Below are positions 45,464-56,277 of a stretch of 56,329 nt of DNA, piece after piece (the first letter of the stretch is position 1; each line of letters starts with the position of its first letter). This DNA comes from Bacillota bacterium (GTDB lineage Bacteria > Bacillota > Dethiobacteria > DTU022). The position numbers were made by a program, and so were the translations under genes. The stretch spans positions 1 through 56,329 of the forward strand of contig JAUWPV010000010.1 of assembly GCA_030611385.1 (NCBI GenBank), read 5' to 3'. Below the pieces are notes generated by a model. That model saw only the letters and a program-made list of their open reading frames with translations, was not told the origin of the DNA and ran no database searches.

Positions 45464-46054
45464 CTAAACAGGGCAGATGGCGTTCTTGTCAGGCTCATAA
45501 ATATCAAGGCTAAATTTTTCCGGGAATTTTGGGACAATATCTTTATAATAGTTCTTCAGGATAAGCATATCTCTTCTGAAACAGCCGCAGGGCATGAAAC
45601 TCGGCCCGATATCGGCTATCTTTTTGGCATAATCCAGCTTGCCTATTACAATGGGTATTCTGGCCTTTAAAGCTATATAGTAAAAGCCGGTTTTCCATTT
45701 TTGGACAAGTTTTCTGGTGCCTTCCGGGGAGATCACCACGATCATATTTTCTTTTGACGTTGCGATTAGTTCGGCAATAGTATCAACCATGGTGTTACTT
45801 TTTGATCTTTCTACACCAAGAGCGCCAGATTTTATAAAGATTTTTTTAAAAAAAGAGACGTTTAACCATTCTTGTTTCATCAGGTATCTAAAGGGGAAAT
45901 TTAATTTATAAAACACAGCCATACCTAAAAAATAATCAACATTGCTGGTATGTGGTGCCCCGACTAATATACATTTATTAATGTGGGCGGGTATCTGACC
46001 CTGTAGTTTCCAGCCCATCATCTTGAATATAAAAAGTGTAAAGATTTTTAACAA
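45464..46054 (-). CDS. PlsC-like 1-acyl-glycerol-3-phosphate acyltransferase paralogue, copy 1
   Basis: A 196-residue lipid acyltransferase. It has a hydrophobic N-terminus, the HxxxxD motif in HTSNVD near residue 35 and the acceptor-binding PEGTRK near 110. These features match the LPLAT superfamily, though it is shorter than typical PlsC. The start LKIFTLFIFKMMGWKLQG suggests a membrane-inserted helix. GGGGGAG stands ahead of ATG on the minus strand. It converges with hutH, 5 bases from its stop. Acceptor lipid unknown. Confidence 0.82.
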   Translation of the reverse strand: MLKIFTLFIFKMMGWKLQGQIPAHINKCILVGAPHTSNVDYFLGMAVFYKLNFPFRYLMKQEWLNVSFFKKIFIKSGALGVERSKSNTMVDTIAELIATSKENMIVVISPEGTRKLVQKWKTGFYYIALKARIPIVIGKLDYAKKIADIGPSFMPCGCFRRDMLILKNYYKDIVPKFPEKFSLDIYEPDKNAICPV

Positions 46055-46171
46055 GTATTTCTCCCCCCTGCCGGAAAATGGTTAAAAATATTTTATCATG
46101 CCCAGATATTATTGCAATAGAGAAATATCTTAATAATTTTATGATATTCTGCAGGCCCTGGGCTAAATTTC

Positions 46172-46762
46172 CTAACCGGTGCAGAGGGCGTTCTCATCAG
46201 CTACATAAATATCAAGGCTAAATTGTTCCGGGAATTTCGGGGTGATATCTTTGTAATAGTTCTTCAGGATAAGCATATCTTTTTTAAAACAGCCGCTGGG
46301 CATGAAACTCGGCCCGATCGCAGCTATCTTTTTGGCATAATCCAGATGGCTTAGCACAATAGGCACTCTGGCTTTTAAAGCCGCATAGTAAAAGCCGGTT
46401 TTCCATTTTGGGGCAAGTTTTCGGGTGCCTTCCGGGGAGATCATCACAGCCACATTTTCTTCTGACGTTGTAATCAGTTCGGCCAGAGCATCGACCATGG
46501 TGTTATTTTTTGACCTTTCTACACCAAGGGCACCGGAGTTTTTAAAGATTCTTTTTAGCAAAAAGATGTTTAACCATTCTTGTTTGATCAGGTATCTTAC
46601 GGGAAGTTTCATTTTATAAAACGAGGCCATGGCCAGAAGAAAATCAACATTACTGGTATGTGGAGCCGCTACTAATATACATTTATTAATGTGGGCAGGC
46701 ATCTTCCCCTGCAGTTTCCAACCCATTATTGTGAATAAAAAAATTGTAAAGATTTTTAACAA
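46172..46762 (-). CDS. PlsC-like acyltransferase paralogue, copy 2
   Basis: Also 196 residues and clearly homologous end to end with copy 1 (same start MLKIFT, HTSNVD and PEGTRK, end PEQFSLDIY). Catalytic motifs remain intact in both copies, so both are probably functional despite divergence; differences cluster in the N-terminal helix and the segment before the C-terminus. GGGGG precedes the start. It arose by the 708-bp tandem duplication. The same uncertain substrate applies. Confidence 0.82.
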   Translation of the reverse strand: MLKIFTIFLFTIMGWKLQGKMPAHINKCILVAAPHTSNVDFLLAMASFYKMKLPVRYLIKQEWLNIFLLKRIFKNSGALGVERSKNNTMVDALAELITTSEENVAVMISPEGTRKLAPKWKTGFYYAALKARVPIVLSHLDYAKKIAAIGPSFMPSGCFKKDMLILKNYYKDITPKFPEQFSLDIYVADENALCTG

Positions 46763-46901
46763 GTATTTCCCCCCTCAATAAAACAATTAATGACAGTTTA
46801 TCACGCCCAGCTATTAATGCAATAGAGAAATATCTTTATAAATTTGTGAAGGGCGATCTGATGATGGATGAATTGACACCAGTAATTGTGATCCGTCTCA
46901 T

Positions 46902-47026
46902 CCCACGTGCAAAGTGCAACTTCCGATAACAGCATATTATGCAAATCGGCCAGCGCCGGTTAAAGCGGTCGGCGCAAAGCCCGCCTCTTACATAATAGGG
47001 CTGCTATAGTAAGTTGCTTGCGTGGG
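46902..47026. repeat. 125-bp nested imperfect inverted repeat (structured element)
   Basis: The outer arms CCCACG..CAA..GCAACTT (46902-46922, with small bulges) pair with AAGTTGCTTGCGTGGG (47011-47026). Inside them ATAxCAGC and TATTATG (46926-46940) pair with CATAATA and GCTGxTAT (46991-47008). At the tip GCGCCG pairs with CGGCGC (about 46953-46976). Pairing at three levels suggests a folded RNA or a small non-autonomous mobile element. No coding frame is seen. The rest of the 633-bp gap between the acyltransferase and TetR genes holds no gene that I can support. Confidence 0.6.
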
Positions 47027-47318
47027 CAAGGGCTTTGTATTTCGCGCCCCACCCTGAAAGCAAAAAGAGCACTACTCACAAATTTCTTCAGAGACCCAAC
47101 GCATTAGATAACGGTGTATTGCAATAGAAAGCTGCCGTGCCTCCCATAATGCCACGTAGTCCTCAAAACCGTCTTCAAATGCTCATTAAACTATTTATGT
47201 TGACACTCCAAGCGGCGATCTTTTAAATCTATCTATGGTTAATTATATAGATTATAGATAACACTTGAGGGCAATATCAAAATATTAAACATATTTAATT
47301 AGTTTCGCGGGTCACCCC

Positions 47319-47347
47319 TTGACACCCTTTTGTGAACATGATACATT
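47319..47347 (+). promoter_or_regulatory. Promoter of the TetR-radical SAM operon
   Basis: A perfect TTGACA (47319-47324) and TACATT (47342-47347) are separated by 17 bases; transcription would start near 47354, beside the operator. Confidence 0.7.
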
Positions 47348-47356
47348 TAAAGAAAC

Positions 47357-47374
47357 TTACTAACCGGTAAGTAA
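47357..47374 (+). promoter_or_regulatory. TetR-type operator, 18-bp palindrome
   Basis: TTACTAACCGGTAAGTAA is palindromic except for one pair. It overlaps the expected transcription start and lies 23 bases before the tetR-family ATG, so the regulator probably represses its own operon. Confidence 0.68.
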
Positions 47375-47397
47375 GTAAAGGAGGATCTCAAGAATAT

Positions 47398-47986
47398 GAC
47401 AAGCTTAACCACCCAACAACCAGAAGATGTTAATCCGGGCACTAAGCAACACATTATTGATACAGCTCGGCACCTGTTTTCGGAGCATAGCTATCTTGGC
47501 GTTTCTATGAACGATATTGCAAAAAAAATAAATATCACTAAAGCAGCGCTGTATTATCATTTCGGAGGAAAAACGGAAATTTATCAAAGAGTGCTCGAAA
47601 ACGTCTTTATTGATTTAAGCTTATCAATAAAAGAAGCTTTGAAGGAATCAACAGCTGAAAAAAAATTATATAAAATTATCAAAAACTATTTAGATTTTGG
47701 TTTAACCGAGAAAAATCTTATCAAGGCTTTAATAATAAAATTCTCACCGCCCGACCCTCAAGTAACAAAGTGTGTAGTTCAACTCAGAGAGCAAATCGCT
47801 GATTTAACTCAACCGGTAATGACGGAAATAGTTTTAAACAAAGAAGTATCGCAAAAAATTGATAGCCGTTCAATAACCTCCTTGCTAATCAGTATGATGG
47901 ACGGCTTGCTTTTAGAGTATTCCTTTTTAAATAAAAAAATTGATTCCGAGAAAGTGGCAAATCAAATAATTGCAGTTTTATTTTAA
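47398..47986 (+). CDS. TetR/AcrR family transcriptional regulator
   Basis: About 195 residues. An N-terminal helix-turn-helix (about 17-64) carries IIDTARHLFSEHSYLGVSM, NDIAKKINITKAALYYHFGG and KTEIYQRVL, the standard TetR DNA-binding fold. The C-terminal ligand-binding helices are not like any member I recognise. AAGGAGG precedes the ATG, and promoter plus palindromic operator stand directly upstream, indicating autoregulation. It lies 69 bases before a radical SAM gene, probably in one operon, so its ligand may relate to that enzyme or to membrane lipids handled by the nearby acyltransferases. Confidence 0.92.
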
Positions 47987-48055
47987 AGTTTTAAAGGTCA
48001 AAGGCTAGACCATCCAACGGATTCTAAATAAGTAACCAGAAAAGAGGTAACAATT

Positions 48056-49522
48056 ATGTTAAGTCTACCGCAAGCCATATTGGAAAGCCGTTACGTTGAG
48101 GCTGTGGAAAAACAATACAGCAAGCCTTTAAGGTTGCTGGTGTCCAACACGGCAACCAGAAAGCGAATAATAAAATTTGTTGATAAGAAAATGTATGAAG
48201 CTATTATGAACAACGAAAACAATCCGTACCAAGTACAGAAAGATAGATATTCCATGGGCAGAAGCCTTGTTTTGGCTATGGAAAAGGCCTATGAGAATGC
48301 TGAAAAGGCGCCTAATGTCCGCAAGGCGATGGTTAATAGCATAGTGCAATCTTTTTCCTTAAAAAGAAAAAAGCAGTTTGAAGTATTCCAGGCCGAATTC
48401 CATCGCAATCCGCCTTTTTTCTTGACCATTAGCCCAACGAAATTTTGTAATTTAAAATGTGATGGCTGTTATGCCAGCAGTTCTTCAGCCACTTCCGAAA
48501 AATTGGAATGGGGTGTTCTGGAAAAAATTATGGCTGAAAAGACCAACCTTTGGGGATCGTATTTTACGGTTATTTCCGGTGGCGAGCCATTTCTTTATAA
48601 AAGTCGGGGGAAGACTATCATCGATATAGCCAAACAGCATCCGGATAATATTTTTTTGGTATACACTAACGGTACCTTAATTAATAAAGAAATGGCTAAG
48701 AGTTTAGCCGAGGTTGGCAATATTACTCCGGCTATTTCTGTTGAAGGTTTCGAAAAAGAAACCGATGAGCGGCGGGGAAGCGGCACTCATAAAAAAGTTT
48801 TAGAAGCAATGGCAAACCTGAGAGAAGTAGGGGTGCCCTTTGGCATCTCCTTTACAGCTACCCGAAACAATGCCGATTTATTATTAGATGATAAATTTGT
48901 AGATTATTATTTCAATGAATGCGGGGCTGTCTATGGTTGGATTTTTCAACTCATGCCTATTGGTAGGTCGGATTCATTAGATTTGATGGTCACCCCAGAG
49001 CAAAGAGTCAAGATGTTCAAGAGAACTAAGCATTTAGTAGAAGAGCGTAAAATATTTATCGCGGACTTTTGGAATAGCGGTTGTACCAGTAACGGATGCA
49101 TCTCTGCCGGCAGGCAGGGTGGGTATTTGTATATAGACTGGAATGGCAATGTTACTCCCTGTGTTTTCAACCCATATTCACCGGTGAATATTAATGATGT
49201 GTACAAAACCGGGGGCACTCTTAACGATGTAATAATGGAACCCTTTTTTGAATCTATCAGGCAATGGCAAAAAGATTATGCTTTAGATAAAAAACCTAAC
49301 GAAATGGGAAATTGGTTGATCCCCTGCGCAATTAAAGACCATTACGATATGATGGAAAAATTATTGGACGAACACCAACCTAAGGCGATAGACGAAGCTG
49401 CTCAACAAGCCCTTCATGATCCCGAATATAAGAAAGGACTAAAAGAGTACGGTAAAAAAGTAGCCGAAGCTACCGATCCTATCTGGGAATATGATTATTT
49501 AGATTTTAATCTGGGAATATGA
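48056..49522 (+). CDS. Radical SAM enzyme with SPASM-like C-terminal cysteines; C-terminus altered by a tandem duplication
   Basis: A 488-residue radical SAM protein. A 120-residue helical N-terminal region precedes the 4Fe-4S motif CNLKCDGC near residue 137. ISGGEPFL follows. Further cysteines in SGCTSNGC, VTPCVFNP and IPCAIKDHYD near 345-430 fit auxiliary clusters of the SPASM type. Substrate is unknown; no maturation precursor peptide is adjacent. AAAGAGG stands before ATG 48056. The last residues, NLGI, come from a 28-bp tandem duplication at 49481-49536; without it the protein would end DFKRPEIRAR. Confidence 0.88.
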   Translation: MLSLPQAILESRYVEAVEKQYSKPLRLLVSNTATRKRIIKFVDKKMYEAIMNNENNPYQVQKDRYSMGRSLVLAMEKAYENAEKAPNVRKAMVNSIVQSFSLKRKKQFEVFQAEFHRNPPFFLTISPTKFCNLKCDGCYASSSSATSEKLEWGVLEKIMAEKTNLWGSYFTVISGGEPFLYKSRGKTIIDIAKQHPDNIFLVYTNGTLINKEMAKSLAEVGNITPAISVEGFEKETDERRGSGTHKKVLEAMANLREVGVPFGISFTATRNNADLLLDDKFVDYYFNECGAVYGWIFQLMPIGRSDSLDLMVTPEQRVKMFKRTKHLVEERKIFIADFWNSGCTSNGCISAGRQGGYLYIDWNGNVTPCVFNPYSPVNINDVYKTGGTLNDVIMEPFFESIRQWQKDYALDKKPNEMGNWLIPCAIKDHYDMMEKLLDEHQPKAIDEAAQQALHDPEYKKGLKEYGKKVAEATDPIWEYDYLDFNLGI

Positions 49523-49536
49523 TTATTTAGATTTTA
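49481..49536 (+). repeat. Perfect 28-bp tandem duplication at the end of the radical SAM gene
   Basis: Bases 49481-49508 are repeated exactly at 49509-49536. The unit starts ATCTGGGAATATG and encodes IWEYDYLDF. As 28 is not a multiple of three, the second copy is out of frame. Confidence 0.92.
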
Positions 49537-49548
49537 AAAGGCCAGAAA

Positions 49549-49574
49549 TTAGAGCCCGTTAAGCCGGGCTCTAA
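49549..49574 (+). terminator. Stem-loop after the radical SAM gene
   Basis: TTAGAGCCCG (49549-49558) and CGGGCTCTAA (49565-49574) form a perfect 10-bp stem with a 6-base loop. There is no T run after it, so it may stabilise the transcript or act as a weak terminator. Confidence 0.45.
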
Positions 49575-49643
49575 CAAATCAAGCCTACTCACCTTTTTAG
49601 TATGTTGTGCTGTTATTTAAACTATTGAAGGAGTTTAATTTGA

Positions 49644-50828
49644 ATGAAAGTTATCTTCGCTGAATCATGTCATCTGGATCGTCCCGATCAGCTGGAGTCG
49701 TACCAGTATATCCGCCTTTTTCAAAAGGGCGGCCACGAATGTCTTTGGCTTGGGGCGACAGCCAGCCCTACACATCTTTTTAAAACCAAAATATTAAATC
49801 GGGATAGCTTTCGCGCTTGGTGGGAGAGCAGGCGCCAGGTCGGCGGGATTGTCCGACTAATGCCTTTATCGATCCCTGATTACCATAATCTGCCTCTTAT
49901 ACGCAACTTCTTTGCGGGGTGTAGCCAGTACCGTGCTTGTTTGCCGTCGCTTGAGAGGCAGCTAAAAAAAGCCGGATTTGTGCCTGCTGATCTGCTTTGG
50001 TGTACAGGGCCAACAACCTTGGACCTGCTCGATCTGGTGCCACATCGTGTTAGTTGCTATTGGTTGGCCGACCGCCAAGATCAGGACGATATGATCCCGC
50101 CGAACGTGGCTGAACAGCAGGAAAAGCTAATCAAGCGGGTTGATTTTGTGTTGGCCGCCTCGCATTCCCTATTGGAGCGGGCGCACACTGTGAGGGAAGG
50201 AGGTGTTCATTACCTGCCTGACGGGGTAAGCGAAATCTTTTTTGAGCCGGCTGGACCGCCCCCGGAGGACTTTCCGACAAATGGACTGCCTGTTGTGGTC
50301 TGTGTGGGTGACCTTGACAACTGTTTTGATATGAAGCTGCTGGCCCACGCTGTTTATACGATGAAAGATCTGCACTTCCTGATAATTGGACGCCTGACTT
50401 TTGAGGATTTAAAACCGAGGATGTTGGCTTTGTTGGATGAAGATAATTTCACGTGGCTTGGAGCGAGAGAGCATAAAAAGATTCCCGCTTACCTGCAACA
50501 CAGCGACGTTGGGATAATTCCTTTATGTCTCACCGATCTGTCCACGGCTGTAAACCCGCTTAAATATTTTGAGTTCGTGGCCTGCGGTCTGCCGGTAGTT
50601 GCCCCACCTCAATCCAAACTGACTATCCTGGAAGGGCCTCTTTATACCTACCGCAACAGGGATGATATTTACATAGCCCTGAAAAAGGCTTTGTCCGTGA
50701 AGGAAGGCGGCCAGTCTAATCTCGCCGACTATATAAACCAATATACCTGGAAGAGTCGCTTCGAGAAGATTATAGAGATCGTCGAGGACAAACGGAGAGT
50801 GTCTTCAGGGTTGAAGATAATAAAGTAA
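49644..50828 (+). CDS. Glycosyltransferase family 4-like protein
   Basis: A 394-residue GT-B fold protein. The N-terminal half is variable. The C-terminal half holds PDGVSEIFF (acceptor/donor loop), VCVGDLDNCFDMKLL, and the donor-site region IPLCLTDLSTAVNPLKYFEF followed by ACGLPVVAPP, typical of GT4/GT1 enzymes. It likely transfers a sugar from a nucleotide donor to a lipid or polysaccharide acceptor on the inner membrane face. GAAGGAG precedes ATG 49644. It follows the radical SAM gene but is preceded by a stem-loop, so shared transcription is not certain. Confidence 0.82.
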   Translation: MKVIFAESCHLDRPDQLESYQYIRLFQKGGHECLWLGATASPTHLFKTKILNRDSFRAWWESRRQVGGIVRLMPLSIPDYHNLPLIRNFFAGCSQYRACLPSLERQLKKAGFVPADLLWCTGPTTLDLLDLVPHRVSCYWLADRQDQDDMIPPNVAEQQEKLIKRVDFVLAASHSLLERAHTVREGGVHYLPDGVSEIFFEPAGPPPEDFPTNGLPVVVCVGDLDNCFDMKLLAHAVYTMKDLHFLIIGRLTFEDLKPRMLALLDEDNFTWLGAREHKKIPAYLQHSDVGIIPLCLTDLSTAVNPLKYFEFVACGLPVVAPPQSKLTILEGPLYTYRNRDDIYIALKKALSVKEGGQSNLADYINQYTWKSRFEKIIEIVEDKRRVSSGLKIIK

Positions 50829-50965
50829 CAGTTCACACTTAACATAAGGTTAGTTGTGCGGAGTCAAGATCTTTGTTGGTAAAAAAGCATAGGAATATGG
50901 GGTCGAGTCATGTTAACCAGTTATTAATTATATGTATTCGACTGGCCGAGATAGGGGGGAGATGT

Positions 50966-51148
50966 GTGGATCGAGAAAAACAAAAAGATTTAAGCAGGAG
51001 AATTCTGTTTGAAGCAGTAGGGCTAAAATTGCCCTGCCGGAAAGCATTTATCATTGCTAAGGAAGCGGATTGTTCTCCGGAAATTGTAGGCAAGATTTGT
51101 AACGAGGCAGGGATCAAGATTGTCAGTTGCCAGTTGGCTTGTTTCTAA
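50966..51148 (+). CDS. 60-residue small protein with conserved cysteines
   Basis: GTG 50966, preceded by AGGGGGGAGA, opens 60 codons. The product has helices around LPCRKAFIIAKEADCSPEIV and ends GIKIVSCQLACF. I recall similar short proteins with a C...IA...C.CQL.CF pattern in Clostridia but cannot name a function. Four cysteines suggest metal or redox binding. The longer frame from 50873 has no start site. A hairpin GGTGAC/GTCACC (51158-51175) follows the stop. Confidence 0.6.
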   Translation: MDREKQKDLSRRILFEAVGLKLPCRKAFIIAKEADCSPEIVGKICNEAGIKIVSCQLACF

Positions 51149-51314
51149 AAAGATCATGGTGACAAATGCGTCACCGCTAGAACAGTGAAAACGCGCAGCG
51201 ATTAATTGTAAGACGAGAGCCTCTGAAATTTGTGGCTTATGATGTTGTTAGAATTGCATGAAAGTAATTGGACACCCTTAAACCCGATTCGGTTTTACGG
51301 AGACGGGAGGTTTT

Positions 51315-51959
51315 ATGATTAGGAAGGAACAGAATATACTCACCGTATTAACTGCCACTTTTGGCGGGGGCTTGAAAATGTTTGCCATAATTTTGTTTGC
51401 GGTTGCGGGTTGGAAACTGCAGGGACAAATGCCTGTCAACATCACGAAATGTATTGTTGTGGGGGCGCCGCATACCAGTAATTATGACTTGTTTTTTGTC
51501 ATGGCCGGATTATATAAAACGAAGCTCCCCGTACGCTTTTTGATAAAACAGGAATGGCTCATGCTTTTTCCGATAAAGAACTTTTTGCTATCTACAGGGG
51601 CTCTTGGTATAAACAGAGCAAAAATAAATACCACGGTTGATAGCTTGGCCGAATTAATTACAACATCAAATAAAAATATTGCCGTATTGATTGCCCCCGA
51701 AGGCACCCGAAAACGCGCCGTTAAGTGGAAAACCGGATTCTATTATGCAGCGCTAAAAGCGAAAGTGCCGATAATTTTGATCAGTCTAGACTACTCCAAA
51801 AAGCTGACAGTGCTTGGCCCCAATTTTATGCCCAGCGGCTGTTATAAAAGTGACATGCAAATCCTCAAAGATTTTTATAAAGATGTTGTCCCGAAATACC
51901 CGGACAATTTTTGCCTGGACATTTACTTGGACAATGAAAACGAAACTTGCGCCAAATAA
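51315..51959 (+). CDS. PlsC-like acyltransferase paralogue, third copy
   Basis: A 214-residue homologue of the two minus-strand copies: same WKLQGQMP opening after an 18-residue extension, HTSNYD (HxxxxD), PEGTRK and a matching C-terminal YPDNFCLDIY. An internal ATG at about 51378 (MFAIILFA) corresponds to the start of the other copies. GGGAGG precedes ATG 51315. It is dispersed, on the opposite strand and 4.6 kb from the tandem pair, so it is an older or rearranged duplicate. Acceptor unknown. Confidence 0.82.
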   Translation: MIRKEQNILTVLTATFGGGLKMFAIILFAVAGWKLQGQMPVNITKCIVVGAPHTSNYDLFFVMAGLYKTKLPVRFLIKQEWLMLFPIKNFLLSTGALGINRAKINTTVDSLAELITTSNKNIAVLIAPEGTRKRAVKWKTGFYYAALKAKVPIILISLDYSKKLTVLGPNFMPSGCYKSDMQILKDFYKDVVPKYPDNFCLDIYLDNENETCAK

Positions 51960-52210: not shown

Positions 52211-52798
52211 TTACTCCCTCCACCGCACCTCATGCTCTCTAATATACCGATAAAGTGTCGGTCGGCTGACCTCGAGCAGCCTGGCAAATTCAGTAGCCGT
52301 AATATCCCCGTCTTTCCACATCGGGTAATATTTCTTAAAGGCCTGTGGTATCAGACGCGGTGGCCTGCCGATCGGGCGGCCCGACCGGGTGCCGTATTTT
52401 TTCGCCTTTGCTATACCCTCGCGGATGCGCTCCACGGTTATCTCGCGCTCCATCTCGGCTACCGCGCCCAGGATGGTCAGCATAAACCTAAACATGTTAT
52501 TGCCGTCGCCGGTGTTAAAACCTTCCTTGATGAAATGAACGGTTATCTCTTTATCCTTGAATTCCTGCACGATCTGCCGTAAGTCGTCTACATTGCGGCC
52601 CAGCCTGGAGATGCTTTCCACGTAGATGTTGTCGCCCTTCTGGGCTTTTAATCTAAGCTTGTTCAGCTGCGGGCGGTCCACTTTACTGCCAGATAGCTTG
52701 TCGCAATAATCCCGGTCAATGGCAATACCTTTAAAAGCTTCCTCCTGGCGCCTTAAATCCTGCTTCTCGGTGCTTACTCTTTTATAGGCAAAGTTCAT
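52211..52798 (-). CDS. Serine recombinase (resolvase/invertase family)
   Basis: A 195-residue small serine recombinase. The nucleophile is Ser9 in YKRVSTEKQD; ESISRLGRN near residue 65 supplies catalytic arginines; the long E helix starts at EMEREITVERIREG. The C-terminus has the DNA-binding linker SGRPIGRPPRL and a helix-turn-helix with LLEVSRPTLYRYI. Such proteins resolve cointegrates or invert DNA. TTTACAC-type boxes lie just upstream. It is divergent from an excisionase-like gene, suggesting a mobile or once-mobile module. Confidence 0.92.
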   Translation of the reverse strand: MNFAYKRVSTEKQDLRRQEEAFKGIAIDRDYCDKLSGSKVDRPQLNKLRLKAQKGDNIYVESISRLGRNVDDLRQIVQEFKDKEITVHFIKEGFNTGDGNNMFRFMLTILGAVAEMEREITVERIREGIAKAKKYGTRSGRPIGRPPRLIPQAFKKYYPMWKDGDITATEFARLLEVSRPTLYRYIREHEVRWRE

Positions 52799-53139: not shown

Positions 53140-53337
53140 ATGACGAGTAAGTTACTAACACCAGATGCTGTCGCGGAGAGACTCGCTGTCTCCCCGGCCA
53201 CGGTCAGGATATGGTTGCGCAAAGGCATCTTAAAAGGCGTAAAAGTTGGCGGTGGCAAGCTATGGCGAATCAGCGAATCGGCGATCGATGAGTTTATAAA
53301 AGGCGGGCAGGGGAATGCCGGCCAAGAGGGGGTTTAA
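53140..53337 (+). CDS. Excisionase-family helix-turn-helix DNA-binding protein
   Basis: A 65-residue winged-helix protein of the excisionase/MerR-like type: LLTPDAVAERLAVSPATVRI as the recognition region, then KGVKVGGGKLWRISESAIDEFI as the wing. Such proteins bend DNA for site-specific recombination or act as small regulators. It ends two bases before the sensor gene, so the two are co-transcribed. Whether it works with the divergent serine recombinase is inference. Confidence 0.88.
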   Translation: MTSKLLTPDAVAERLAVSPATVRIWLRKGILKGVKVGGGKLWRISESAIDEFIKGGQGNAGQEGV

Positions 53338-53339
53338 TC

Positions 53340-54998
53340 ATGAAGGAACCTTTCGACAGAACGCTCAAACCGTCTAAATACAAAAAGGGCCTACCCTATA
53401 TTGTGCTGGCGGTCTTACTTATCCTCTCCGTTTTGATCTGGCAGTTTTATGAAAACTATGTCTTGCAGAGAGAAGAACGCAGGTACGGCGAATATGTCGA
53501 CAACGTTGTAAACGACATCACCAAACTAATTAATAAAGATGAGCTGCTCCTTCAGGGTGGCGCAGGAATATTCGCTGCTTCCGAAGCGGTGACCCGGGCG
53601 GAATGGCAGGCCTATTATGAATACCGGCAAATCAGTACTCTTTATCCGGGCATCCAGGCTGTAGCGGTTTCCAGGGTCGTCTGGGCCCCTGAGCTGGTAC
53701 AGCATATTGAAGAGATCAGGGCTGAAGGTTTCCCCGACTATACGGTCTGGCCCGCGGGAGAACGCGAGGTGTATGCGCCTGTTATTTTCGCGGCTCCCTT
53801 TGACGCGCGTAATCGGCGCGCTTTCGGCTATGACTCATTTTCCGAACCGATGCGCCGGGCCGCTATGGAGCAGGCGCGGGATACCGGCGCTGTCACGATT
53901 ACCGGTATGGTGACGCTGGTCACAGAGACCGACGAGGACAGCCCAATGGGGTTCCTGATGTATATCCCTATCTATGCGCAGGGTATGTCGCTTAATACCC
54001 CCGAAGAGCGAAGGGCGGCCATCGAAGGCTATGTCTTGGGCGCAATACGCATACAAGCGATGATTCAGAATCTCTTTCCGCCGGACCCCTTACAAAATAT
54101 CCACTTTGAAATATATGACGGCGTAGAGGCCTCTCCGGAAGCCCCGGTCTACGACAGCCATGTCTTTCTCGACGAGCCCGGTGAGGAATACAAGCCGCTG
54201 TTTAGAAGCCGAAAAACCCTGGACCTGTACGGTCACCAATGGATCCTGGCCGCCCATTCCACGCCGGCTTTTGAGGCTACTGTTGATCGAAATACGCCCA
54301 GAGGCATTCTCGCCGCCGGCCTTCTGGTCAGCTGTCTGGTCTTCATCTATCTTCGGATTCTGGAGACCACTGGCGACCGGGCGCTTGCCCTGGCCCGGAA
54401 GATGACCACTGCCCTGCGGGAAAGCGAAGAAAAATATCGTTTACTGACCGAGCATATTTCAGATGTCATCTGGACCGCGGATCTGGAAGGTCGCATCACT
54501 TATATGAGCCCGGCCATCAAGAACCTGATCGGTTATACACCCGAAGAGATTATGGCTATGAACATTAATGAATACACTGTCCAGGAGGATTGCGATGCTC
54601 TTGTAGCGAGATTGGCGGAAGAGCTGGCCAAGCCGCCGGCAGAGCGACATCATTCTATGATCATAACGGTTCGCCATAAAACAAAGGACAATCGCCTCGT
54701 GCATGTTGAGCTCAGCGCCACATGGCTTCTGGATGAGCAGGACAATGTCATTGGTATCCAGGGCAGCACACGAGACATCACCGAGCGTAAACAGTTGGAA
54801 GAACAGATCATTGAAAGCAAACAAATGTACCAGTCAGTGGTTGACACTCAGCCGGAAATGATCGCCCGTTATTTAGCCGATACAACTCTAACATTTGTTA
54901 ACGATGCTTACTGCCGGTTTCACGGGAAACCGGCAGGAATTGGTGGGCCACAAGTTTCTGGAGTTTCAACCGCCGGAAATACAAGATCAGATAATTGA
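53340..54998 (+). CDS. CHASE-PAS sensor, N-terminal half of a frameshifted gene
   Basis: 552 residues in frame. A membrane helix at about 19-37 is followed by an extracytoplasmic CHASE domain (40-310, with WQAYYEYRQISTLYPGIQAV and VYAPVIFAAPF), a second helix (about 320-340), a PAS domain (360-490, ending GSTRDITERK) and the start of a second PAS (FVNDAYCRFHGK). The frame then runs into a stop at 54998. The missing remainder continues in another frame from about 54928. AGAGGGGG lies just before the ATG at 53340. The two halves form one natural sensor. Confidence 0.85.
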   Translation: MKEPFDRTLKPSKYKKGLPYIVLAVLLILSVLIWQFYENYVLQREERRYGEYVDNVVNDITKLINKDELLLQGGAGIFAASEAVTRAEWQAYYEYRQISTLYPGIQAVAVSRVVWAPELVQHIEEIRAEGFPDYTVWPAGEREVYAPVIFAAPFDARNRRAFGYDSFSEPMRRAAMEQARDTGAVTITGMVTLVTETDEDSPMGFLMYIPIYAQGMSLNTPEERRAAIEGYVLGAIRIQAMIQNLFPPDPLQNIHFEIYDGVEASPEAPVYDSHVFLDEPGEEYKPLFRSRKTLDLYGHQWILAAHSTPAFEATVDRNTPRGILAAGLLVSCLVFIYLRILETTGDRALALARKMTTALRESEEKYRLLTEHISDVIWTADLEGRITYMSPAIKNLIGYTPEEIMAMNINEYTVQEDCDALVARLAEELAKPPAERHHSMIITVRHKTKDNRLVHVELSATWLLDEQDNVIGIQGSTRDITERKQLEEQIIESKQMYQSVVDTQPEMIARYLADTTLTFVNDAYCRFHGKPAGIGGPQVSGVSTAGNTRSDN

Positions 54999-56277
54999 AT
55001 TAATTAATAATTTGACTCCCGATAAGCCCAGCGTAACATATGAGCATTATGTTTTGATTACTGACGGCAGCATTCGCTGGCAGGAATGGACAGATCAGGT
55101 TTTATTCACTAAAGCCGGAGAGGTCAAAGAGTTCCAGACGGTGGGGCGCGATATCACCGAGAGTAAGCAAGCGAGCGAGGAAATACAGCGCCAGCGCGAC
55201 CGCGCGGAATCGCTTTTAAAAAACGCCGCTCTCCTCAATGCTGACCTGGATCTTGAAACAGTGCTAAACACGGTTTGCGAAGAGACCTGCAGCGCCCTCC
55301 ACGTCCCGCTGTCCGGCCTTCTGCTTTACAATGACAAAAGCCATAGTTTTCATCTCGCCGGCAGCTCAGGTCTGCCGCCAAAGGTTGCTAAGTCCGTAAA
55401 GCCACTTCCCCGGGCGGTCTACGACGAGTTGGTCCACAAGCTGGGCAAATCCGGCGTAGTTTCCGATCTCGCTGCCGTGCCGGACCTACTCTCTGTGGAG
55501 TTTTTGCGGGAGCGTGGTATCAAACACTTCGTCTATGCCTCTTTGAAGCGGGGTAACTTACCCATGGGCCTGCTTGTGGCCGGATCCGCCGGGGAAGATT
55601 ATATTTTGATAGAGGACACCCCCGAGCTCCTCTCCGGTCTGGCAGACCAGGCCGCTTCGGCCATCACCAACGCAGAGCTCTTCCAAAAGCTGGAGAGCTC
55701 CAACCTAGAACTGCTCCAGGCCTACGGTGCTACCATCGAAGGCTGGGCTTACGCTCTCGACCTGAAGGACGAAGAGACCAAGAATCACAGCCAGCGTGTC
55801 ACCGAGATGACCCTGCGCCTGGCCCGGGAGATGGGCGTGAAGGATGAAGCACTGGGCCACACGCGGCGGGGAGCCCTGCTGCACGATATCGGCAAGATGG
55901 GCATCCCCGATGCCATTCTTCTCAAATCCGATCCTCTGACTGAGCGCGAATGGGCGGTCGTGCACCGGCACCCCCGCTACGCCTATGATATGCTCTCACC
56001 GATTGATTACTTGCGCCCGGCTCTGGCCATCCCCTACTGCCACCACGAGAAATTCGACGGCAGCGGCTACCCGCGCGGGCTTAAAGGGGAACATATCCCC
56101 CTCACGGCACGCATTTTTGCTGTGGTTGATGTCTTCGATGCCCTGACCAGTGATCGTCCCTACCGCAAGGCCTGGAGCAGAGAAGAAGCGCTTGATCATA
56201 TTAAGCAGGAGAGCGGCAAACATTTTGACCCGCAGGTGGTGGCGGTGTTCCTGGGGGAGCTCAATAGCACAGGCTGA
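54895..56277 (+). CDS. PAS-GAF-HD-GYP half of the frameshifted CHASE sensor
   Basis: Continuing in a new frame: NRQELVGHKFLEFQPPEIQD completes the second PAS, then VGRDITESK, a GAF domain (about 115-270) and HD-GYP (275-455) with LLHDIGKMGIP and CHHEKFDGSGYP. The ATG at 54895 has no ribosome binding site and lies inside the first half, so it is not a real start. Adding two bases in, or removing one from, the GGGAAA run near 54923-54928 fuses both halves into about 978 residues. No GGDEF is present, so this would be a c-di-GMP phosphodiesterase only. Confidence 0.85.
   Translation: MLTMLTAGFTGNRQELVGHKFLEFQPPEIQDQIIELINNLTPDKPSVTYEHYVLITDGSIRWQEWTDQVLFTKAGEVKEFQTVGRDITESKQASEEIQRQRDRAESLLKNAALLNADLDLETVLNTVCEETCSALHVPLSGLLLYNDKSHSFHLAGSSGLPPKVAKSVKPLPRAVYDELVHKLGKSGVVSDLAAVPDLLSVEFLRERGIKHFVYASLKRGNLPMGLLVAGSAGEDYILIEDTPELLSGLADQAASAITNAELFQKLESSNLELLQAYGATIEGWAYALDLKDEETKNHSQRVTEMTLRLAREMGVKDEALGHTRRGALLHDIGKMGIPDAILLKSDPLTEREWAVVHRHPRYAYDMLSPIDYLRPALAIPYCHHEKFDGSGYPRGLKGEHIPLTARIFAVVDVFDALTSDRPYRKAWSREEALDHIKQESGKHFDPQVVAVFLGELNSTG

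Follow-up and report, generated by a model that had tools for sequence, protein, structure and literature searches.

Genes and regulatory features of the region

The window analysed here is a 56,329-bp stretch of contig JAUWPV010000010.1 from a Bacillota genome. The region of interest begins with two minus-strand acyltransferase genes, AT1 (45464–46054) and AT2 (46172–46762), which are tandem duplicates, the duplication taking in their upstream region. They are followed, all on the plus strand, by genes coding for a TetR-family regulator of 196 aa (47396–47986), a radical SAM (rSAM)/SPASM-like protein of 488 aa from an undescribed subfamily (48056–49522), a group-1 glycosyltransferase (49644–50828), a Cys-rich protein of 60 residues (50966–51148) and the third acyltransferase, AT3 (51315–51959). 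The TetR and rSAM genes are co-directional and separated by 69 bp. An earlier note on this DNA had listed the same genes, and all of them are present at or inside the limits it gave. No Rfam elements were detected between 45400 and 53400.

The three acyltransferases, described in that note as paralogous, indeed score above the PF01553 cut-off each and share 75%, 64% and 56% identity with one another. The HX4D and EGTR motifs (HTSNVD or HTSNYD, and PEGTR) are visible in all of them, which together with PF01553 makes them PlsC-type proteins; the 1-acylglycerol-3-phosphate family TIGR00530 scores 50–54, below its cut-off of 103. The Cys-rich ORF has a ribosome-binding-site-like sequence AGGGGGGAG just 5' of its GTG start at 50966. 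It has no match in Pfam or NCBIfam and no homologue among the compared loci, and no relative of either this ORF or rSAM was found on viral contigs.

The TetR-rSAM operon is preceded by a promoter-like site of the sigma-70 type, TTGACA-17-TACATT (47319–47347, plus strand), and by a 20-bp palindrome CTTACTAACCGGTAAGTAAG (47356–47375, no strand), the predicted TetR operator, which lies at about +1 of the promoter and has a chance expectation in the window of 0.01 with up to 3 mismatches allowed. The nearest homologues of rSAM come from metagenome-assembled genomes (MAGs) labelled as Buchananbacteria (L001, 69% identity) and Chitinophagales (L002, 65%), and both loci carry an orthologous TetR as well (60% and about 50–51% identity, respectively). 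In L001, TTGACA-16-TATACT is followed by CTTACCGATCGGTAAGTAAG, and in L002 TTGACA is followed by CTTACCACTCGGTAAGTAA. The form common to them, CTTACYNNYCGGTAAGTAA, has a single copy in each of the three units (window, L001 and L002), just after the promoter, and is absent from the remaining loci compared (182; L030 and L050 duplicate the window).

The gene orders in these three units are TetR-rSAM, TetR-GT2-rSAM and rSAM-TetR, with the pair kept together throughout. With TetR leading in two of the units and rSAM in the other, the palindrome belongs to the unit as a whole and not to the TetR gene alone. It is conserved at the promoter among orthologous units in the manner of an autoregulating TetR operon, and, because the same palindrome follows the promoter in three pairs and is missing from the other loci, the autoregulation proposed in the earlier note is well supported at the sequence level. 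The only other site with no more than two mismatches to the full palindrome, found in a scan of 1.03 Mb of the 1.76-Mb genome, lies inside a coding gene, so the regulator looks to be a local one. A similar palindrome, CTGACCGACCGGTCAGTCAC, is located elsewhere in the same genome (L243:14461-14480, contig C21), after a promoter-like site and before an RND exporter gene, and is probably the operator of a different TetR.

Origin of the TetR-rSAM pair and of its neighbours

At E ≤ 1e-85 the rSAM subfamily was found in only one of the 398 sampled genomes of the phylum, namely in this one. Since, in addition, its nearest relatives belong to MAGs of distant bacteria and both genes are GC-poor (34% for TetR and 40% for rSAM, with 48% ± 2.7 for the other ORFs of the window), the unit is, judging by distribution and composition, an import from distant bacteria placed between native genes. 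The A/T-richer stretch reported previously is therefore borne out by the TetR and rSAM genes but not by the glycosyltransferase gene with its 50% GC. In L001 the pair is surrounded by genes coding for GT2, UppS, a CrtC-lipocalin and ABC proteins. Its neighbours in L002 are genes of the conjugation type, including those of a TraD/TrwB-like ATPase and a replication-relaxation protein, and this Chitinophagales-labelled contig may have been misbinned or may represent a mobile element. Acyltransferase genes accompany the pair in neither of the two.

Just downstream of the region, there are genes for a Mpi-like serine recombinase (52211–52798) and an excisionase-like HTH protein (53140–53337), a possible remnant of the mobile element that delivered the TetR-rSAM unit.

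The neighbouring acyltransferase and glycosyltransferase genes, by contrast, belong to the host's bacterial family and live independently of the pair, being located apart from rSAM in nearly all of its genomes that carry them. A search of 60 relatives revealed the acyltransferase in the majority of the genomes of this family, at 46–75% identity, in varying places and with neighbours that differ from genome to genome. The tree divides these proteins into two lineages within the bacterial family, with AT1 and AT2 on one side and AT3 in the other, a well-supported clade. In the relative G002, a minus-strand acyltransferase gene is located directly after hutH of the hut operon, exactly as in the window, and beyond it lie other genes, with TetR-rSAM being absent there. 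A/T-richness was considered as a sign of foreign origin of the acyltransferases and rejected: the copies in the relatives examined are likewise low in GC, so composition is uninformative on where these genes come from. The glycosyltransferase, likewise a native family gene outside the unit, was found at 43–57% identity in about 10 relatives, also in varying places, and the genome itself possesses a second copy, a 57% paralogue.

The earlier note had read the acyltransferases, TetR-rSAM, the glycosyltransferase and the Cys protein as a single locus, and this set does not recur in other genomes, the very finding that the note had named as refuting it. What was observed there is correct, but its interpretation as one locus is most likely wrong, the flanking acyltransferase and glycosyltransferase genes being probably chance neighbours of the TetR-rSAM unit. 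The case illustrates that a locus deduced from adjacency, however plausible, may dissolve once relatives are compared.

The rSAM enzyme and its comparison with known systems

PF04055 scores 80.8 bits on rSAM (cut-off 29.5), placing it in the radical SAM superfamily, and SPASM is barely over its cut-off with 22.5 bits against 21.5. The CX3CX2C motif of the radical SAM cluster (C131, C135 and C138; 48446–48469, plus strand) is invariant in 28 homologues. The AF2 model (pLDDT 88) consists of a helical N-terminal domain (residues 6–115), the RS core and a cut-down SPASM domain. Cysteines C343, C348, C369 and C424 (49082–49327, plus strand) are presumably the ligands of an auxiliary cluster, by analogy with anSME. 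The last three are invariant in homologues and form the first auxiliary-cluster pattern, C348-X15-G-X4-C369 ... C424, while C343, seen solely in the window and in L001 and L002, could supply the remaining ligand in this subclade. No conserved cysteines are left for a second auxiliary cluster.

There is no NCBIfam model reaching its cut-off on rSAM, hence no curated family, and literature searches retrieved no description of the subfamily. Defence libraries gave weak matches to the viperin core alone, and no solved structure resembles the whole protein, the best hits being peptide maturases with a TM score of 0.5. An exact 28-bp tandem duplication (ATCTGGGAATATGATTATTTAGATTTTA twice, 49481–49536) spans the stop codon of the rSAM gene and alters its last residues, which are beyond the conserved core. 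Distant homologues (35% identity) are carried by plasmids of Escherichia albertii (L194) and Klebsiella (L195), with IS66 elements nearby.

Among known enzymes, the archaeal GMGT synthase Gms, a radical SAM/SPASM enzyme that cross-links lipids, has two fully Cys-ligated auxiliary clusters (PMC11186832). Compared with Gms by description alone, rSAM has the same domain order, with an all-helical N-terminal domain, the RS core and a SPASM-type C-terminal region, as well as CX3CX2C at approximately residue 123–131 and anaerobic hosts, but it has three invariant C-terminal cysteines (four in the subclade) and lacks the second cluster. Identity with Gms was rejected on this last feature; by analogy of layout, the window enzyme may nevertheless work like Gms. 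Tes/GDGT-MAS (PDB 7tol, 7tom) offers a lipid-acting precedent with a radical SAM core. It was rejected as a full-length homologue, as only the core, residues 116–252 of the profile, could be aligned with the MJ0619-type enzymes (E 1.1e-4) and the Foldseek TM score was 0.38. The bacterial membrane-spanning lipid synthase Mss is, according to the account of Sahonero-Canavesi 2022 given in PMC13274423, present in hundreds of Clostridia species; as far as that account goes, its anaerobic bacterial hosts and fatty-acid chains as substrate make it an attractive analogy. Distribution, which is the basis of this comparison rather than sequence, speaks against it, as the reported spread in Clostridia is wide and the rSAM subfamily has a single genome in the phylum sample.

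Regulation and probable function of the operon

The AF2 model of TetR (pLDDT 84.5) has B. subtilis FadR as its nearest solved fold (TM 0.76). Its fold matches include the fatty-acid regulators FadR and FasR but also MtrR and DarR, at 17% identity, and the FadR family score is 43.9, under the cut-off of 200, so that TetR resembles the FadR/FasR-type regulators in predicted fold and differs from them in sequence.

The association of TetR with rSAM is also seen beyond these three units. A TetR gene immediately adjoins rSAM in 20 of 88 loci and is found within six genes of it in 26 of 88. A set of 20 genomes with such rSAM loci contains 55 TetR genes (1–6 each, about 1.2 per Mb), from which about 0.3 adjacencies would be expected by chance, an expectation that is conservative as the genomes were picked partly for the TetR-rSAM linkage. 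In several of them (G060, G067, G963 and G974), the sole TetR_N match is the one near rSAM. On the archaeal Methanosphaera plasmid pNP174 too, TetR directly precedes a 30%-identical rSAM with the same three C-terminal cysteines. Because the TetR proteins near rSAM belong to unlike groups (16–24% identity to the window TetR) and the adjacency label changes at least 7 times on the tree, the link arose or was kept repeatedly.

Lipid-related neighbours are found in a more restricted part of the family. In a sister clade, TetR-rSAM is followed by genes coding for PlsC, one or two ACPs, an MMPL exporter and LolA-like and DUF1302 proteins, to which relatives add LpxL, GT4, patatin and an alpha/beta hydrolase, and planctomycete members are followed by phasin and ABC1/UbiB kinase genes. 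PF01553 occurs within 6 genes of rSAM in 5 different loci, with about 0.8 expected at 1.9 copies per genome, these loci being mostly from one clade. Lipid genes are missing from the vicinity of most rSAM loci, and the cluster containing them comes chiefly from one clade of a candidate phylum. Among the branches without such neighbours is one of 40% identity from the order to which the window belongs, which lies next to FdhD, a setting unrelated to lipids. The neighbourhood survey suggested in the earlier note thus found rSAM together with TetR and, within a single clade, with acyltransferases other than those of the window, ACP and lipid exporters, but not the set proposed there; of the lipid role put forward with it, the lipid-leaning context of the family elsewhere stands, and the joint locus with the acyltransferases, glycosyltransferase and Cys protein of the window does not.

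Owing to the lipid neighbours in the sister clade, the PF01553 excess and the FadR-like fold of TetR, a lipid or other hydrophobic substrate is favoured for rSAM, with chances that we put at about even and no better. The reading we prefer, itself rated at roughly even chances, is that of a horizontally acquired, autoregulated TetR-rSAM operon (47319–49522) which tailors a membrane lipid and is flanked by bystanders. TetR would bind the palindrome at the transcription start and repress its own gene and that of rSAM until a ligand releases it, probably one that resembles acyl-CoA or is otherwise hydrophobic. As for the chemistry, we infer that rSAM would use the RS cluster and SAM to abstract a hydrogen atom from its substrate, with the participation of one auxiliary [4Fe-4S] cluster held by the three invariant cysteines and the fourth candidate of the subclade. 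The likeliest substrate would be a membrane lipid or acyl chain situated under the helical N-terminal cap, and the acyltransferases, the glycosyltransferase and the Cys ORF would have no part in the process.

Alternatively, the enzyme under TetR control could act as a maturase on a non-lipid target such as a peptide, a cofactor or another enzyme, which is possible though somewhat doubtful. The nearest solved folds are the SPASM peptide maturases SkfB, anSME and SuiB, with which rSAM shares the RS core and the layout of the first auxiliary cluster (CX15GX4C...C), and the rSAM branch of 40% identity mentioned above (L031–L049) regularly adjoins FdhD and a kinase-like ATPase gene. At the same time, rSAM is only 16–21% identical to these maturases and has no second cluster and no peptide or sulfatase partner, its additional N-terminal cap is all-helical and not a peptide-binding fold, and the curated maturase families are all under cut-off. 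A RiPP radical SAM maturase was rejected on the absence of such a family at cut-off and of any precursor-like ORF between TetR and rSAM or between rSAM and the glycosyltransferase gene.

It is improbable that the operon serves a xenobiotic response, with TetR as the sensor of a toxic hydrophobic compound and rSAM as the enzyme that inactivates it. A local autoregulated TetR pair moving between phyla and the plasmid location of distant homologues would be in line with detoxification, but the pair is not accompanied by any gene for transport or resistance, and the family is carried by 71 of 147 genomes of one candidate phylum, which suggests a housekeeping-like role there. Least of all do we expect all the genes to build one unusual glycolipid jointly. 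In favour of this very improbable reading are their adjacency, G027, where both native acyltransferase lineages adjoin, and G020, the one co-location seen, in which about 1.1 kb separates an acyltransferase gene from a remote rSAM homologue (about 36%) that lacks a window-type TetR. Against it, the full set is not seen again in other genomes, the acyltransferase and the glycosyltransferase are each spread over the family on their own, the glycosyltransferase has a host-like GC content and TetR-rSAM is imported.

The case for lipid tailoring by the imported TetR-rSAM operon is consequently moderate. A bolder version of it, speculative and in our estimate rather unlikely, is that the subfamily represents a new bacterial membrane-lipid synthase making a C-C bond or a similar change on an unactivated acyl or isoprenoid chain, governed by its own TetR, which would sense the product or an acyl group, and passed from phylum to phylum as a compact two-gene cassette. 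Few bacterial radical SAM enzymes act on lipids, and those that do matter for the evolution of membranes and for lipid biomarkers; a widespread uncharacterised subfamily closely tied to TetR, with an ACP-acyltransferase-exporter cluster in one lineage, is a testable candidate.

Two further observations concern the surroundings of these genes. In candidate-phylum lipid gene clusters, the window-type rSAM is directly preceded by a second rSAM (L014:6433-7908 and L029:322-1800), which is AhbD/NirJ-like with a full SPASM domain and a helical N-terminal extension of 120 residues. At the end of the window, the overlapping ORFs 53340–54998 and 54895–56277 look like pieces of a single PAS/GAF/HD-GYP sensor protein interrupted by a frameshift.
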